Below are positions 49,360 to 54,965 of a DNA stretch of 56,908 bases, in pieces. Position numbers and translations under genes: made by a program. Origin of the DNA: Bryobacterales bacterium (GTDB lineage Bacteria; Acidobacteriota; Terriglobia; Bryobacterales; Bryobacteraceae); contig CANIIC010000004.1 in the NCBI GenBank assembly GCA_947467395.1, forward strand, positions 1 to 56,908. Direction: 5' to 3'. Numbering within the stretch: the stretch's first letter is position 1; every line of letters begins with the position of its first letter. Below the pieces are notes generated by a model. That model worked only from the letters and a program-made list of their open reading frames with translations, did no database searches and was not told where the DNA came from.

Positions 49360-49815
49360 TTAGAACTTCAGGCGAGCCTTCAGCGCGGTCAGTTCCTTTA
49401 CGTTCACGCCGGGGACCTTCACCAACGCATCGAAGTTCGCGATCTTCGCCGCCGTGCGAGCCGCCACGATCGCGTCCACTTCGGCCTTCTTCAAGCCAAG
49501 GTCCGTTTCCAATTCCGCCGGCGTCGCGGTGTTCATATTCACGGACTGGCCGAAATAACGCGCCAGATAATTCGTCACGATCTTGAAGTCTTCTTCGCTG
49601 CCCGACGCGCCGCGATTCTTCATCGCGTCCACAGTCTCTTCCCAGCGAGTCTTCGAGCCCTGAGAACCAATCACAATATCCGCTCCGTGGCAGGCGCCAC
49701 AGACGTTCTCGTAAACGTCGCGGCCTTCACCGTCCGGGAGTCCCTGCGCCATGGCCGAACCCGAACCAACCAGCGCAATCGCCAAGGGCGTCAACAACAG
49801 AACCGTTCGTTTCAT
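49360..49815 (-). CDS. Exported monohaem cytochrome c fused to a helix-hairpin-helix domain
   Basis: 151 aa: signal peptide (about 1-23, ending SAMAQ), cytochrome-c-like domain with one haem motif CGACH (C39, C42, H43), and a C-terminal ComEA-like HhH (about 92-151: VNMNTATPAELETDLGLKKAEVDAI, FDALVKVPGVNVKEL). The HhH usually binds DNA; the combination with c-type haem suggests an electron-transfer protein with a docking module (inference). The start is the ATG at 49815; a frame open up to 50160 overlaps another gene. It is 3 bp from convergent mfd. Confidence 0.85.
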   Translation of the reverse strand: MKRTVLLLTPLAIALVGSGSAMAQGLPDGEGRDVYENVCGACHGADIVIGSQGSKTRWEETVDAMKNRGASGSEEDFKIVTNYLARYFGQSVNMNTATPAELETDLGLKKAEVDAIVAARTAAKIANFDALVKVPGVNVKELTALKARLKF

Positions 49816-49882
49816 GTTGTCCATCATATCTAGTCTTTGGATGTCCCCGCATCTGCCCGCGTTACAGAATTCCGTGCCCTTG

Positions 49883-49888
49883 TACAAT
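49883..49888 (+). promoter_or_regulatory. -10-like box of a probable leaderless promoter
   Basis: TACAAT, 6 nt, then the ATG at 49895, with no Shine-Dalgarno. A weak GTTACA lies 16 nt upstream as a -35 candidate. Confidence 0.55.
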
Positions 49889-49894
49889 CGTTCC

Positions 49895-50647
49895 ATGCGC
49901 TTTTTGCTTCCCTTCCTGCTCGCCGCCTCCGTTGCCGCCGTTACGGCCAATGCCGAGACTCCCATTGAGCATAGTAACGAGACCCGCTTCCAACTAGACC
50001 TCAAGGTCCCCGACGCCGAACTCGCCAAGTTCGTCCCCTCCGGCTTCACCATGAATGTCTCGACCACCGGAGCCGCCAAGGACTGCAACGTGCGCGTCGT
50101 ATTCATTGACCGCGTCACCATCAACAACCCCGACGGCACCCCCAAGGGCAAAGGCAGCAACCGCTTGGTCTACCTGGCCGTTCCAGTCAAGAACGCCGCC
50201 GGCGAAGGCTCGCAGCTGATCATCGGCGGCCTTACCGCAGACGACGCCCCCGGTCCGTACGCGAACTACCTGCTCGCCAGCAAACACTCGATGACCACCG
50301 AAACCAGCGGCTTCAACCCCATCCTGCAGACCCAACATTGGTCCTTCCAAGCCGCCACCGGCGAACACCTGGAAATGGACATCACCTTCCAACGCGGTTC
50401 CGCCGCCGTCCGCCCCCTGGGTGATACCAAGTTCTATTCCGCCAAGAACCCGACCTTCTACCAGATCTCCCGCCAGGAACAAGTGCTCGACATCATGAAG
50501 AATGTGACCACCAATCCGCCTGACCACGTGAAGAGCTTCAAATTCAAAGCCGGCGGCGGCAGTTGGTCGAAGTTGTTCGACGGCACCGAGAAGGTCCTGA
50601 GCTGGGATAACATTCTGTGGCTGAATCGGACCGTTTTGCTGCCGTAG
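49895..50647 (+). CDS. Exported protein of unknown function
   Basis: 250 aa with a signal peptide (MRFLLPFLLAASVAAVTANA) and one globular domain. The mature part has RFQLDLKVPDAELAKFVPSGFTM, VRVVFIDRVTINNPDGTP, SNRLVYLAVPVKN and LIIGGLTADDAPGPY. The opening resembles acetoacetate-decarboxylase-like or DUF2071-like folds, but catalytic residues are not clear, so I leave the function open. There is a TACAAT box 6 nt before the ATG. It is convergent with the TonB-C gene with one base between stop codons. Confidence 0.75.
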   Translation: MRFLLPFLLAASVAAVTANAETPIEHSNETRFQLDLKVPDAELAKFVPSGFTMNVSTTGAAKDCNVRVVFIDRVTINNPDGTPKGKGSNRLVYLAVPVKNAAGEGSQLIIGGLTADDAPGPYANYLLASKHSMTTETSGFNPILQTQHWSFQAATGEHLEMDITFQRGSAAVRPLGDTKFYSAKNPTFYQISRQEQVLDIMKNVTTNPPDHVKSFKFKAGGGSWSKLFDGTEKVLSWDNILWLNRTVLLP

Positions 50648-50648
50648 G

Positions 50649-51017
50649 CTACCGAAGCGTGAAGGGAACGTCGATTTCCGTCATCACCGGTACGGCTTGC
50701 CCGTTACGAACAAACGGATCGTAGACCCAGCGCTCGACAGCACTCAAAGCGGCCTCGCGAAGCATCGCCGGGCCGCGAACAACCCGAGCCTCTTGGATTC
50801 GCCCATCGGATCCAATCCGGACCACGACTCTGACCACGCCCTGCACCCGAGCTTCGCGGGCGCTGTCCGGATACTGAGGCGCTACTTTCTGGCGAAGGTT
50901 GCGTTCTGCGAGGCGAGGCTCGATCTGAGCGACAACTGGCCCTGGAGGTACACGCTGTTGAGCGTCGATCGTTCCCAGTGTCAAACCTATCAAAAGCATC
51001 CCGATCCACTTCGACAT
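50649..51017 (-). CDS. TonB C-terminal-domain protein, exported
   Basis: 122 aa: signal peptide (MSKWIGMLLIGLTLGTIDA) followed by a TonB-like C-terminal domain (YPDSAREARVQGVVRVVVRIGSDGRIQEARVV, SAVERWVYDPFVRNGQAV, VPFTL). It has no long proline-rich spanning region and no retained membrane helix, so it is a periplasmic TonB-C-like protein rather than a full energy transducer. It lies 42 bp downstream of the SDR-DUF2867 gene on the same strand, and TAGACT lies 6 nt before the ATG. Confidence 0.88.
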   Translation of the reverse strand: MSKWIGMLLIGLTLGTIDAQQRVPPGPVVAQIEPRLAERNLRQKVAPQYPDSAREARVQGVVRVVVRIGSDGRIQEARVVRGPAMLREAALSAVERWVYDPFVRNGQAVPVMTEIDVPFTLR

Positions 51018-51023
51018 AGTGGA

Positions 51024-51029
51024 AGTCTA
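51024..51029 (-). promoter_or_regulatory. -10-like box of a probable leaderless promoter (TonB-C gene)
   Basis: TAGACT on the minus strand, 6 nt, then the ATG at 51017, no Shine-Dalgarno. Confidence 0.45.
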
Positions 51030-51059
51030 CAGGCCTAAAACACTCCTGTCGAGCCGGTG

Positions 51060-52529
51060 CTACACCTCGCGCTCGCCGAACTCCCCAAGCCCCGCGATCC
51101 GCACCGCATCCCGCTCAATCCCCGCCAACATCCCGCGAAACACCAGCCCGTGGAACGGCAGCACGGCATACCAGTACAGCAACCCGAACAATCCCTTGGG
51201 CTCGAACAGCGCGGTTTGCACCAACTTGCACCGGCCATCGTCCTCCGCCTCAATGCGAAAATCCAGCAGAGCCTCGCCCGGCACCCGCATCTCCGCGCGC
51301 AATGAAAGCGACCGATTCTTCTCCAACCCCACCACGCGCCAGAAATCCAGAGCATCGCCATACCGCAGCGAATCCGGATGCCTGCGACCTCGCCGCAAAC
51401 CCGGCCCGCCCGCCGCACGATCCAGCCAGCCTCGGATCTTCCACAACCACACCGCGTACCAACCGTTCGCGCCGCCCACCCGGCACACGGCCCGATAGGC
51501 AGCCCACGCAGGAGCCTCTATCGTCACCTCGCGCGCATCGCGAAACACCGTTCCGCCTGACCAATCCGGATCGCCCGCCATGGGCCCCGCCATCGACCAG
51601 TTCGTCTCCACCATGCGCGACGCCACCTGACTCAGCGCGGCGTGGATGGCCTCCCGCACACTCATCAGCTTCTGCGGAATCAGGCGCGTGATGCGGTCTT
51701 CGCGGCACACAACTTCATTCTTCAAACCCTCGGCCAAAGGCCTCGCGATCTTGCGGCTGAGCGGCGTCACCAAGTGAATCCAGTACGAACTCAACCGCGG
51801 CGTCAGAACCGGCACCGGAATGATCCACCGTCGCGGCAGCTTCAGCTCCTCGGCCATAATCCGCATGATGTCGCGATAACACAGGACTTCGCTCCCGCCG
51901 ATATCAAACACCTCACCGATCGTCTCCGGCACTGCGAGTGCACCCACCAGGTACGTCAGCACATTCTCCACCGCAATCGGCTGGCAAGCAGTGCTCACCC
52001 ACTTCGGCGTGATCATCACCGGCAGCCGTTGCACCAGATAGCGCAGAATCTCAAATGAAGCCGAGCCCGACCCGATGATCATCGCCGCACGCAGCACCGT
52101 GACCGGCACACCCGTCGATCCCAACGCGCCCTCTACGTCACGACGCGAAGTCAGGTGTTCGCTCAACCCCGCACCCATCTCACCCAGCCCGCCCAGATAG
52201 AGGATACGCTTCACTCCGGCCGCGCGAGCCGCCGTTGCGAAACTGTGCGCCAACGCCAAATCCTGACGCGCGTACTCGCCATCGTCGGACATCATGGAGT
52301 GGACTAAATAGAAGGCGGCGCTACAGCCCACCAGATTCGGGATGAGCGTGGCGTCGTCGCTGAGTTCGACTGCGCGAATTTCGACGTCAGGGTTTGACGT
52401 CCAGTCGCGACCATCCAGCTTGCGCGGCGATCGTACCAGGCACCGGATCGCGTACCCGGCCTCCAGAAGCAACGGCGCGAGCCGTCCGCCGATGTAACCC
52501 GTCGCGCCTACTATGGCAATGCGTTCCAG
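51060..52529 (-). CDS. NAD(P)-binding SDR-like protein with DUF2867 domain
   Basis: 489 aa. The N-terminal Rossmann domain begins at once (ERIAIVGATGYIGGRLAPLL), with AAFYLVHSM, YLGGLGEMG and GSEVLCYRDIMRIM, like atypical SDR (NmrA/complex-I-type) proteins. The C-terminal about 150 residues are DUF2867 (SRPBCC-like: WYAVWLWKIRGWLDRAAGG, KGLFGLLYWYAVLPFHGLVF). Substrate unknown. The only start close to the fold is CTG at 52529; the next AUG-like start lies inside moaD over 100 bp upstream. It follows moaD by 38 bp. Confidence 0.82.
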   Translation of the reverse strand: MERIAIVGATGYIGGRLAPLLLEAGYAIRCLVRSPRKLDGRDWTSNPDVEIRAVELSDDATLIPNLVGCSAAFYLVHSMMSDDGEYARQDLALAHSFATAARAAGVKRILYLGGLGEMGAGLSEHLTSRRDVEGALGSTGVPVTVLRAAMIIGSGSASFEILRYLVQRLPVMITPKWVSTACQPIAVENVLTYLVGALAVPETIGEVFDIGGSEVLCYRDIMRIMAEELKLPRRWIIPVPVLTPRLSSYWIHLVTPLSRKIARPLAEGLKNEVVCREDRITRLIPQKLMSVREAIHAALSQVASRMVETNWSMAGPMAGDPDWSGGTVFRDAREVTIEAPAWAAYRAVCRVGGANGWYAVWLWKIRGWLDRAAGGPGLRRGRRHPDSLRYGDALDFWRVVGLEKNRSLSLRAEMRVPGEALLDFRIEAEDDGRCKLVQTALFEPKGLFGLLYWYAVLPFHGLVFRGMLAGIERDAVRIAGLGEFGEREV

Positions 52530-52567
52530 TGAGGACCCGCTCTCAGTGTAGCCCCGGCGGGCCTGGA

Positions 52568-52864
52568 CTATCCTCCGGATAACGAGCCGACCACCAGGAA
52601 CGGTTCCTTGCCCGACACCACATCCTCCGGCAGCTCCGCGTCCATCGGGGCGAACGACACATCTTCCATACACGCGAAATACCGCACGTACGCCCGGCGT
52701 TCCTTCGACACGTGATCCCGAATCGTTCCCTGCAACTGCGGGAACTTGGCCTCCAGCGCATCCAACAGGCGGCGCTGTGTCACCGGAGCTTCTACCTCCA
52801 GTGACACCTCGCCCACCACTTTTGCCAGCGTGCGCAAATGCGCCGGCATCTGCACGCGAATCAT
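52568..52864 (-). CDS. MoaD/ThiS-family sulfur-carrier-like protein
   Basis: 98 aa with the ubiquitin-like MoaD/ThiS pattern: [33 protein letters not shown] and a C-terminal ...[10 protein letters not shown]. The diglycine end is the site of thiocarboxylation in sulfur carriers. This one is a little longer than typical MoaD (80-90 aa), and no E1-like MoeB/ThiF or MoaE is nearby. The start overlaps the BNR-propeller stop (ATGA), so it is translationally coupled to it. Confidence 0.85.
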
Positions 52865-53976
52865 TTCAGCGACTGAACCTCAACCGACAAAACCGCCGGC
52901 AGATCGTGCACGATCGCCTTCCACGACTCGCCGCCGTCAGCCGACGCATACACCTGTCCGCCCGTCGTGCCGAAGTACACGCCGCAATCCTCCAGCGAAT
53001 CCACGCACATCGCATCGCGCAGCACGTTGACGTAACAGTTCTCCTGCGGCAGACCCTTCGTCATCGCTTCCCACTCATTGCCGCCCGACTTACTGCGATA
53101 CACGCGCAACGCGCCGTCCAGGGGGAAATGTTCGCTATCGCTCTTGATCGGAACCGTGAAGATCGTCTCCGGCTCATGCGCATGAACATCGATCACGAAC
53201 CCGAAGTCCGTCGGCAGATTGCCGCTCACTTCGGTCCACTTCTCGCCCGCATCATCGGTCCGCAATACGTCCCAGTGCTTCTGCATGAACAGCGTGTTCG
53301 GCTTCGACGGATGCATCGCGATGCGGTGCACACAATGGCCGACCTCGGCAGTCGGATTCGGGATGTGCAGCGAGCTCAAGCCATTATTGATCGGCTTCCA
53401 ACTCACGCCCGCGTCCTCGCTCCGGAATGCGCCCGCCGCCGAGATCGCGCCATACATGCGATTGTGATTCGTCGGATCAATCAGGATCGTGTGCAACCCC
53501 ATGCCGCCTGCGCCCGGACACCACTTCTCACCCGTCGGATGCGTGCGCAGCCCGGCCAGTTCCACCCACGACTTGCCGCCGTCCGTCGTTTTGAAGAGCG
53601 CGGCATCTTCGACGCCCGCATACACCGTATCCGGATCGCTCAGCGAAGGCTCCACGTGCCACACGCGCTTAAACTCCCACGGATGCGGCGTGCCGTCGTA
53701 CCAAAGATGCTTGCCCGTCGGGCCGTCATACAGGAACTTGTTGTCCACCGGCTCCCATGTCTTGCCGCCATCATCGGACCGCTGCATCAGCTGCCCGAAC
53801 CAATCGCTGCATTGCGACGCGTAGATCCGATTCGGGTCCACTGGAGAACCCTTCAAGTGATACATGTTGAAGCCCGCAAAGAACGGACCTTTCACATCCC
53901 ACTTGTCTCTCTTGCCGTCTGCTTCAAGAATGAACGCGCCCTTGCGCGTGCCCACTAGAACTCGTACGCCGCTCAT
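52861..53976 (-). CDS. BNR/Asp-box beta-propeller (sialidase-like) protein
   Basis: 371 aa without a signal peptide, so probably cytoplasmic. At least five Asp-box motifs are visible: [32 protein letters not shown] and SADGGESW. The first strand is [14 protein letters not shown]. The catalytic arginines of true sialidases are not evident; it fits WD40/YVTN/BNR-like repeat proteins. The start is the ATG at 53976 with GAGGGA 7 nt upstream. It sits 10 bp after the HxlR-type regulator gene and overlaps moaD by 4 bp. Confidence 0.88.
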
Positions 53977-53986
53977 ATAAGGTCCC

Positions 53987-54445
53987 TCAACCTCCAAATT
54001 TCGGGATCAACGGCGTCAAATCGCGTTCCTCCCATCGTTTCCTGACTTCCGCCAGAAACCCCACGCGATCCTTCGCCATCATCGCCATCATCTGCTTCAT
54101 CACCGGACCCGCCGACTTCGGAGCCTCATGCCGAGCGCCCCACATCAGCAACTCCAGCAGAACCGGAGCCAGGTCAATGCCCTTCTCCGTTAGCCGATAA
54201 AACACCCGCCGCGCATCTTCGGGGTCTTTCTCCGAAGACACGATCCCCGCCGTCTCCAACCTCTGGAGCCGGTCGGCCAGGATGTTCGTGGCGATCCCCT
54301 CACCCGAACCCTGGAACTCCTTAAATGTCCGATACCCGCGCACCATCAGATCGCGAATGATCAACATCGACCAGCGATCCCCCAGTACATCCAAGGCCGC
54401 GCCCACCGGGCATCCGGACCTGTGCTTCCCCTTCAGCCCAGGCAT
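53987..54445 (-). CDS. HxlR-family winged-helix transcriptional regulator
   Basis: 152 aa with HxlR features: [23 protein letters not shown] near the N-terminus with one conserved cysteine (a redox/electrophile sensor in several family members), [20 protein letters not shown] (recognition helix region) and [13 protein letters not shown] (wing). The C-terminal 45 residues are helical. It probably autoregulates and controls the BNR/MoaD genes and perhaps msrB through the palindrome at 54465-54483. The Cys with nearby msrB hints at oxidative signals, which is inference. Confidence 0.92.
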
Positions 54446-54464
54446 GGGAATACGCCAACAGGAT

Positions 54465-54483
54465 TACTTGCAGATCGCAAGTA
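54465..54483. promoter_or_regulatory. Palindromic operator, probably for the HxlR-type regulator
   Basis: TACTTGC-AGATC-GCAAGTA is a perfect 7-bp inverted repeat with a 5-bp spacer, the arrangement (ACTT...AAGT) common for HxlR regulators. It lies between the divergent hxlR and msrB starts, about 12 bp upstream of a CATAAT -10 box (54496-54501) for msrB, so binding would cover the -35 region. Confidence 0.75.
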
Positions 54484-54512: not shown

Positions 54513-54965
54513 ATGCCCACACTCTCCCGCACCGGCTATACCCTAGAACCGATCTCCCCAGCCGAACGCGATCGCCTCGCCAAACGCCTTACGGAGGAAC
54601 AACGCCGCGTCCTACTTGCGCACGGCACCGAACTGCCCTTCTGTGGAGGCCTGCTCGACAACAAAGAGCCGGGCACTTACGCCTGCCGCCTCTGCGGCCT
54701 ACCCCTCTTCTCTTCCGACGCCAAGTTTGAATCCGGCACCGGTTGGCCCAGCTTCTTCCACCCCTTCGATGCCTCGCACATCAGCACCGTCGTTGACGAG
54801 AGCTTCAACATCCGCCGTGTGGAAACTCGCTGTGTCCGTTGCGAAGGTCACTTGGGCCACGTCTTCCCCGACGGCCCGCCGCCCACGCACGTTCGTTATT
54901 GCATGAACTCGGCGGCCCTCGAATTCTTCCCGAGAGGAACGGAGCCGAAACCCGACTCTATTTAA
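54513..54965 (+). CDS. msrB: Peptide-methionine (R)-S-oxide reductase
   Basis: 150 aa. Reduces methionine R-sulfoxide in proteins. The zinc-binding cysteines are C58 and C61 (ACRLC) and C107 and C110 (CVRC); the catalytic Cys is C130 in VRYCMNSAALEF. A possible resolving Cys is C44. GTGWPSFF and EGHLGHVFPDG also match. It has no signal peptide, so is cytosolic. It is divergent from the HxlR-type regulator across the proposed operator and 15 bp upstream of pyk. Confidence 0.96.
   Translation: MPTLSRTGYTLEPISPAERDRLAKRLTEEQRRVLLAHGTELPFCGGLLDNKEPGTYACRLCGLPLFSSDAKFESGTGWPSFFHPFDASHISTVVDESFNIRRVETRCVRCEGHLGHVFPDGPPPTHVRYCMNSAALEFFPRGTEPKPDSI

Follow-up and report, generated by a model that had tools for sequence, protein, structure and literature searches.

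The pathways known to depend on ubiquitin-like carriers in bacteria are few. In the MoaD-MoaE and ThiS-ThiG systems, a small carrier ending in GG is encoded with one partner; neither MoaE nor ThiG is a propeller or related to one in fold, and no propeller is known to us as a sulfur acceptor. Some Asp-box propellers, such as Ycf48, are assembly factors. In the CysO system of Mycobacterium tuberculosis and Amycolatopsis orientalis, the partners are CysM and Mec; according to the available text of PMC3227635, CysO is activated by a rhodanese-type E1, and a single E1, MoeZR, sulfurates MoaD1, MoaD2 and CysO. Glycine ends are also recognized by the Kelch E3 receptors KLHDC2, KLHDC3 and KLHDC10, whose propeller top binds C-terminal glycine ends including GG (PMC11568203, available text). 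For the Asp-box protein Reut_B4987 of Ralstonia eutropha JMP134 (PDB 3b7f), the function is listed as not known, and the accessible part of the source mentions no link to a carrier (PMC2716378).

Here, we have analysed a 56,908-nucleotide stretch of a Bryobacterales genome (the window), in which a gene for an Asp-box (BNR) propeller overlaps a gene for a GG-ending carrier. The pair resembles MoaD-MoaE and ThiS-ThiG in that a small GG-ending carrier is encoded with one partner, but differs in that the propeller fold is unrelated to MoaE or ThiG. The carrier is similar to CysO in fold (Z 11.1-11.8) and in its GG end, whereas the gene beside it encodes an Asp-box propeller rather than CysM or Mec. 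Its best structural match is SAMP1 of Haloferax volcanii (Z 12.8, 1.9 A over 88 residues), although identity is about 20% and conjugation is a property of SAMP1, the carrier here being known from genes and a model. The propeller belongs to the same family as 3b7f (profile E 1e-79), and the match of its predicted fold to that structure (TM 0.89) indicates that the propeller fold is present. The KLHDC receptors offer an analogy only, as they are Kelch rather than Asp-box propellers and act in eukaryotic degradation. No published description of a propeller-carrier pair was found by full-text searches of the literature, in which subscription papers are largely absent; in the text available for PMC1779556, supplementary neighbourhood lists aside, the words "propeller" and "BNR" occur 0 times, and in that for PMC1949818 "propeller" occurs once, in a figure legend, and the pair is not described.

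Organization of the locus

The features of the locus are listed in Table 1.

Table 1. Features in and around the propeller-carrier pair, in window coordinates
Feature	Position	Strand	Details
TonB C-terminal domain protein	50649..51017	minus	42 bp beyond the DUF2867 gene; 1/176 related loci
NAD(P)-binding/DUF2867 protein	51060..52529	minus	outside the module; 0/176 related loci by tblastn
Ubiquitin-like (beta-grasp) carrier	52568..52864	minus	98 aa, C-terminal SLSGG
ATGA stop/start overlap, propeller/carrier	52861..52864	minus	direct reading; 4-nt overlap in 64/76 pairs
Asp-box (BNR) propeller	52861..53976	minus	371 aa, 7-bladed; ATG 53976, stop 52861
HxlR-type regulator	53987..54445	minus	152 aa, N-terminal SGCP cysteine; PF01638 E 9.7e-20
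Palindrome TACTTGCN5GCAAGTA, candidate HxlR operator	54465..54483	.	exact copy in window
msrB	54513..54965	plus	divergent; shares the intergenic palindrome here; outside the conserved module, 0/176 loci by tblastn

The initial annotation described a block of five minus-strand genes, from hxlR to the TonB-C gene, with a divergent msrB. The genes, the 10-bp gap between hxlR and the propeller gene, the 4-bp overlap and the 42-bp spacing were all recovered, whereas the 38 bp given between the carrier and the SDR (DUF2867) gene presupposes a CTG start at 52529, and the start of that gene is uncertain. For the propeller, an alternative in-frame TTG lies at 53997, and the methionine of MSxVRV is the point from which relatives align. 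The block itself did not hold up: tblastn with the window proteins against 176 related loci, about half of which extend only 1.5 kb past the propeller and are too short to reveal TonB-C, placed neither the downstream genes nor msrB in the module (Table 1). As conservation of the pair extends neither to the genes downstream of it nor to the divergent one, the five-gene operon is rejected. Scans for promoters and terminators gave results at chance level. Elsewhere, the neighbours that recur often are YciI, glyoxalase-fold, DoxX, Polyketide_cyc2 and ECF sigma genes, any one third gene cluster being present at no more than 13 of 81 loci.

Conservation of the propeller-carrier pair

A set of 80 named propeller loci was obtained by scanning genome contigs with a seven-sequence propeller alignment and is biased to the subtype of the window, because this alignment served as the query; a more diverse one of 17 propellers (A1) had diverged too far to be of use in scanning the collection. 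The carrier is present at 76 of these loci, within 62 nt of the propeller gene at 71 and with the 4-nt overlap at 64, taking the nearest in-frame start for each of the 76 pairs. Such an arrangement exceeds chance, because the same overlap and frame recur in tens of genomes, and the ATGA overlap is likely, judging from the sequences, to couple translation of the two proteins. One open reading frame (L020) that looked like a natural propeller-carrier fusion crosses unread bases (X), both where the two parts meet and within the propeller, and was discarded as an assembly artefact.

The initial annotation proposed that the propeller and the carrier act together, and conserved adjacency outside close relatives was indeed found across phyla. 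A carrier lies within about 1.5 kb of the propeller in 22 of the best 30 actinomycetotal loci and in 30/30 fetched loci from the phylum of genome G064, and all 10 plasmid records matching a Mitsuaria carrier have the carrier 5' of a propeller. Both gene orders occur with the pairing kept, and two carrier subtypes are found among the pairs. Of the 198 actinomycetotal genomes sampled, 57 have the propeller. Among 149 genomes from another phylum it was detected in 89, comprising 83 with both genes and 6 with the propeller only, beside 3 with the carrier only and 57 with neither (Fisher p 2.5e-30, relatedness not corrected). A mirror-tree comparison gave a Mantel r of 0.44 (n=74; 0/2000 permutations as high), to which we attach no weight because species relatedness has not been removed from it. 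Some lineages have propellers with no carrier detected nearby (8 of the 30 actinomycetotal loci, as well as L021-L024, L031, L032, L034, L069 and L116). Since 15 of 16 propeller genomes searched for a carrier elsewhere encode one, many of them CysO-like, the propeller does not always require a carrier dedicated to it. Taken with the coupled translation and the co-occurrence, the adjacency supports the view that the two belong together, and the pair (52568-53976, minus strand) is confirmed at the sequence level as a conserved, translationally coupled unit.

Features of the two proteins

The carrier is predicted to adopt a beta-grasp fold (model pLDDT 91.7), in agreement with its earlier assignment to the MoaD/ThiS type, which is also its public label ("MoaD/ThiS family"), but Pfam does not reach that call here: no family matches the window carrier at E <= 0.1, the NCBIfam SAMP1 model gives E 0.03 at best, and PF02597 (ThiS) is detected at E <= 0.01 in only 3 of 46 carrier homologs (best 5.5e-4). 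The GG end noted initially is kept in all 74 complete carriers from the 80 loci, 69 of which end exactly there and five of which add 1-14 residues; the carrier of Nonomuraea (L035) is an exception that has lost it.

The propeller matches PF02012 and PF15902 in Pfam, which shows the presence of Asp-box repeats, and no signal peptide is apparent by eye in its translation. Ten residues (T10, K12, W106, W152, H162, S179, H217, Q232, H234 and R320) are invariant in 172-173 of 173 relatives; K12, kept in 172 of them, is the sole lysine present in at least 12 of 21 non-redundant propellers. When faces were assigned by strand order in the model rather than from coordinates, one face was the nearer one for 10 of the 11 conserved residues that are polar or aromatic and lie outside the Asp boxes, and likewise for 198 of 304 background positions (p 0.06), which is weak as a statistic and only suggestive of a gathering towards one active face. 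In the sequences of the 21 non-redundant propellers, the only acidic residue outside the Asp boxes kept at 90% or more is D326, at the other end, and position 211 is acidic in at least 80% only.

Putative regulation by HxlR

HxlR and its palindrome are supported as a regulatory unit, as the palindrome accompanies the regulator at all 15 HxlR loci (9 exact and, by eye, 6 near copies; L007 and L043 belong to one contig). At these nine loci the exact palindromes precede the HxlR start position by 13-27 nt, L044 having a second copy at 65 nt. Ten exact copies occur in the 176 loci, against a mean of 0.11 and a maximum of 2 for 179 shuffled half-sites. The palindrome is likely the HxlR operator, and in some Acidobacteria the module includes HxlR with this palindrome as an optional component. 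The pair may respond to redox or electrophile stress, as initially suggested.

E1 and other sulfur-carrier genes

The statement that no E1 is close to the pair holds in the window but not throughout the family. The genome of the window has a single ThiF-family match, away from the pair and next to cysO-mec-cysM (contig C92, locus L123; genes named from translations), and none of cysM, mec, cysO and E1 flanks the pair. The CysO of this genome has extra residues after GG; the genome's only MoaE match lies on another contig (C39) with a MoaD-like carrier of its own, so that the pair is not beside moaE, and a further ThiS-family locus is separate. In three relatives (L041, L100 and L103) a ThiF-rhodanese E1 gene adjoins the pair, and by coordinates the genomes of L041 and L100 contain no strong ThiF match other than this one. 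The ThiF family was present in 30/30 chosen genomes (28 with the pair, 2 with the propeller only) and also in 12 of 14 control genomes.

Possible functions of the pair

Considering all of these data, the two genes point to a system of two proteins, not described before, whose probable role is to pass on sulfur or a protein tag. Our leading reading, held at a little below even confidence, is that they form a carrier/acceptor pair in which the carrier is activated by an E1 and the propeller is the sulfur acceptor enzyme. An E1-rhodanese would adenylate the carrier at its GG end and turn that end into a thiocarboxylate, a JAMM (Mec-type) peptidase first trimming those carriers that have residues past GG. 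The GG tail would then insert into the propeller mouth near K12, H162, S179, H217, H234 and R320, and the propeller would act as MoaE does for MoaD and ThiG for ThiS, passing the sulfur to a small molecule; K12 is the best candidate for a reacting lysine, and the propeller might alternatively accept the carrier itself rather than sulfur. In some Acidobacteria, HxlR would govern the pair via the palindrome, probably in response to thiol-reactive compounds. The recurrent neighbours listed above suit small-molecule repair or detoxification. This chemistry is inferred. A fuller version, advanced more tentatively, is that of a widespread bacterial sulfur-transfer (or protein-tagging) pathway in which the E1-activated carrier has the Asp-box propeller, with its invariant lysine-histidine-arginine mouth site, as a dedicated acceptor. 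Its probable role would be the synthesis or repair, under thiol stress, of a small molecule that contains sulfur.

Protein tagging is a less likely alternative, in which the carrier would be a modifier that becomes conjugated to proteins in cells under stress. The propeller would be what it is attached to, what recognises it or an adaptor resembling a ligase, and the GG tail would be read at the propeller top or joined to K12. Such a role would suit the closeness of the carrier fold to SAMP1, an archaeal modifier, the residues past GG in some carriers, which resemble modifier precursors, and the Asp-box relatives that, according to structure titles, have been solved with bound peptides (such as Ycf48 with a D1 peptide); it would also parallel the binding of GG ends of ubiquitin-like proteins on the top side of KLHDC propellers (PMC11568203, available text). 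However, inspection by eye of a set of neighbour clusters turned up neither an E2-like nor a JAMM-E1 gene, the recurrent neighbours resemble small-molecule enzymes, and the rhodanese domain of the three E1s beside the pair suits sulfur transfer.

It is less probable still that the partnership is non-catalytic, with the propeller as a chaperone, store or allosteric holder and the carrier delivering sulfur to an enzyme encoded elsewhere. Orphan propellers in genomes with other carriers, a one-face count that is no more than suggestive and the part that related Asp-box propellers such as Ycf48 play as assembly factors are compatible with such a role, but ten near-universally invariant residues exceed the needs of a holder, and no third gene cluster accompanies more than 13 of 81 loci.

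The public annotation as exo-alpha-sialidase or glycosyl hydrolase, with an incidental carrier neighbour, draws on a fold and weak sequence similarity in common with GH74 propellers and is very improbable given the adjacency, coupling and co-occurrence with the carrier, the lack of an apparent signal peptide and of an invariant acidic residue on the active face at the sequence level, and the listing of 3b7f without a function in the accessible part of PMC2716378. Equally remote is the view of the pair as a cassette, selfish or spread by horizontal transfer, whose genes are adjacent through joint transfer only and have no common biochemical role: propeller identity of 70-79% across records named as many phyla (suggesting transfer, or partly misbinned MAGs) and the patchy presence in Actinomycetota would fit, but the pairing is kept in either gene order and with two subtypes of carrier, both proteins are strongly conserved, and no match was found among 50,697 phage records.

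Implications

A widespread pair is filed in public databases under "sialidase" and "MoaD/ThiS family", and it offers concrete residues and strains for testing. If the propeller is truly a dedicated partner of the carrier, it would represent a new acceptor fold in sulfur-carrier biology and a new kind of partner for the ubiquitin-like carriers, and would inform ideas on how the reading of glycine tails arose in propellers.

Conserved pairing of the propeller and the carrier

The Asp-box propeller gene and the MoaD/ThiS-like carrier gene of the window form a real pair. The initial annotation had suggested that they act together, and their pairing was borne out in the genome_contigs collection, where tblastn (E <= 1e-3) detected the carrier in 76 of the 80 best propeller loci, drawn from at least 587 propeller relatives. 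Record titles cover Acidobacteria, Planctomycetes, Gemmatimonadales, Chloroflexi, Rokuibacteriota, Verrucomicrobia, Actinomycetota, Hydrogenedentota, Omnitrophota and others; MAGs, which may be misbinned, make up many of these records, but the cultured Edaphobacter aggregans, Acidipila rosea, Granulicella and Amycolatopsis alkalitolerans also occur, and each has the carrier. Of the four loci in which no carrier was found, L038 and L107 extend only 186 and 304 nt beyond the propeller; in L069 and L116, tblastn detected none within 6 kb.

The carrier lies at most 62 nt from the propeller in 71 loci, in one relative frame throughout, and 233-1495 nt away in five (L062, L063, L067, L095 and L100). 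When the nearest in-frame start is taken, 64 of the 76 pairs overlap by 4 nt (53 ATGA, 11 GTGA), the others comprising two TGATG overlaps, five spacings of 5-17 nt and five of at least 70 nt. The gaps of 591-753 nt in L063, L067 and L095 keep the same frame and may be insertions or assembly joins.

Features of the propeller-carrier region in the window
Feature	Position	Strand	Remark
HxlR regulator, Asp-box (BNR) propeller and 98-residue protein	52568-54445	minus	
Asp-box propeller	52861-53976	minus	
98-residue carrier protein	52568-52864	minus	C-terminus SLSGG
ATGA	52861-52864		common to propeller stop and carrier start
Palindrome TACTTGCN5GCAAGTA	54465-54483		perfect; between hxlR and divergent msrB
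DUF2867/NAD(P)-binding protein			downstream; start codon uncertain (CTG implied by the spacing in the initial annotation)
TonB C-terminal protein			downstream
Cytochrome-like CGACH segment joined to ComEA-like helix-hairpin-helix end (VNMNTATPAEL)	49360-50160	minus	translation read by eye

Further samples were counted separately because the sets partly overlap (for example, L007 and L043 are one contig). A propeller match at E <= 0.001, the weak ones of which may be other Asp-box proteins, occurred in 40 of 41 genomes (relatives and the window's own). Among 198 evenly drawn Actinomycetota genomes, 57 had a propeller at E <= 1e-40; among their 30 top-scoring loci, 22 had the carrier within approximately 1.5 kb (upstream of the propeller in two), and none was detected in the other eight. 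In the phylum of G064 (seed MAG titled Rhodospirillales), the propeller was found in 89 of 149 genomes, the window-type carrier in 86, and the carrier in all 30 best-scoring loci. Both genes co-occurred in 83 genomes, with six having the propeller only, three the carrier only and 57 neither (Fisher p 2.5e-30, relatedness not removed). In two of the three carrier-only genomes the carrier sits no more than 60 nt from the start of a contig, a position that would leave the propeller off the contig, and in one propeller-only genome (G275) the other carrier subtype adjoins the propeller. Among plasmid records, all 10 with a match to a Mitsuaria carrier place it just 5' of a propeller. These upstream and downstream placements, together with the subtype cases, indicate that pairing is kept in both gene orders and with two carrier subtypes.

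Features of the two proteins

No Pfam family was found in the window carrier, and ThiS was recognized by Pfam in 3 of 46 carrier homologs. The predicted model of the window carrier is a beta-grasp fold (pLDDT 91.7), the nearest solved structures being SAMP1 (Z 12.8), a Thermus MoaD-related protein (12.2) and CysO (11.8 and 11.3). Carrier ends were complete in 74 of the 76 carriers (two are cut by contig ends), with an exact GG end in 69 and GG followed by 1-14 residues in the other five. Residues past GG also occur in the carriers of several genus relatives, and CysO of the window's own genome extends likewise (IAGGAQ). A Nonomuraea carrier (L035), which ends in PALA, is a clear exception.

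The propeller is predicted to have seven blades (pLDDT 90.6) and is a sequence relative (E 1e-79) of 3b7f, a Ralstonia eutropha structure whose function was given as "not known" in a 2009 survey (PMC2716378). In an alignment of 173 sequences retained by length and E-value (21 non-redundant at 70%), the conserved polar or aromatic residues besides Asp-box positions are T10, K12, W106, W152, H162, S179, H217, Q232, H234, R239, R320 and D326. Seven (T10, W152, H162, S179, H217, H234 and R320) are unchanged in all 173 propellers and three (K12, W106 and Q232) in 172, K12 being the only lysine present in at least 12 of the 21 non-redundant sequences. By strand order in the predicted model, ten of the twelve are closer to the D-A/B-C loop face, whereas D326 is on the opposite face; R239, which adjoins an Asp box, is slightly closer to that opposite face. 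As a statistic, this modelled placement is weak (10/11 without Asp-box positions versus 198/304 background, p 0.06), and all conserved residues together give no top-face excess (14/132 top-loop versus 14/91 bottom-loop positions) because the bottom is occupied by the Asp boxes. In the propeller evidence, the constancy of these residues weighs more than their placement. A propeller of the same family, annotated as sialidase, is divergent from egtB/egtD, genes for biosynthesis of the sulfur metabolite ergothioneine, on a Rhodobacter sp. CZR27 plasmid (L211, 1583-5110), with no carrier annotated beside it.

Neighboring genes and putative HxlR control

Recurrent neighbor clusters in 81 loci (window included) are YciI, glyoxalase-fold, HxlR, ECF sigma, DoxX, Polyketide_cyc2/SRPBCC, ArsR and DUF1428, named by Pfam on one or two members of most, and by eye for ArsR and a second SRPBCC cluster; none occurs in more than 13 loci. 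Their ORFs number 73, 15, 13 and 7 in successive bins of approximately 1.5 kb, and 98 of 108 share the same orientation. Such densities (33 versus 5 per 100 kb) are descriptive, since the clusters were picked for recurrence.

HxlR orthologs were found in 15 of 176 loci; the exact palindrome is present in nine of these and a near copy, recognized by eye, in six. Exact palindromes are placed 13-27 nt ahead of the HxlR start position, with a second copy at 65 nt in L044. They occur 10 times in 1.29 Mb, whereas 179 shuffled half-sites averaged 0.11 copies and reached 2 at most. All 11 HxlR proteins of the neighbor cluster contain SGCP near the N-terminus, whose cysteine is a putative thiol sensor by analogy with the family.

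Candidate activating enzymes and carriers encoded elsewhere

The window's assembly is 95.67% complete; a single ThiF-family match, a single MoaE and three PF02597 carriers were identified in it, all off the window's contig. Its cluster of cysM, JAMM peptidase, cysO (GGAQ end) and E1 (L123, contig C92, 828-3698), named by reading translations, may also act on the carrier of the pair, activating and trimming it. Thirty genomes chosen from the 80 loci (28 pair-bearing, two with propeller only) all had a ThiF-family match, as did 12/14 controls; since E1 is common in bacteria, this leaves activation unrefuted but does no more. More telling is an E1 adjoining the pair: a ThiF+rhodanese gene directly follows the carrier in L041 and L100, where it is the only strong ThiF match of the genome by coordinates, and is divergent from the propeller in L103. 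Several carriers are reported to be served by one mycobacterial E1 of this type (PMC3227635).

No carrier was detected near the propeller in L021-L024, L031, L032, L034, L069 and L116. A second-subtype carrier matched in 15 of 16 propeller genomes searched (eight Actinomycetota, those of L021-L024 and four of the six propeller-only genomes), with many matches adjoining cysM or mec homologs; a general carrier, rather than a dedicated one, may thus serve the propeller as well. L021-L024, from the window's genus, encode a second propeller subtype (~45% identical) for which no carrier was detected at distances up to 1.5 kb, although a cysO-type carrier is encoded elsewhere in three of these genomes (L196, L198 and L199).

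Possible role of the pair

No description of the pair was found in the literature searched; the individual genes do carry annotations in public records. Protein tagging, or reading of the carrier tail, ranks second after sulfur transfer and is less likely. A propeller face is capable of GG-end reading, as shown by KLHDC propellers, whose top side binds such ends of ubiquitin-like proteins (PMC11568203). Sulfur transfer is, tentatively, the most likely role by analogy: in its anatomy the pair resembles MoaD-MoaE, ThiS-ThiG and CysO-CysM, each of which joins one carrier to one acceptor, in which case the propeller would be the acceptor in place of MoaE, ThiG or CysM.
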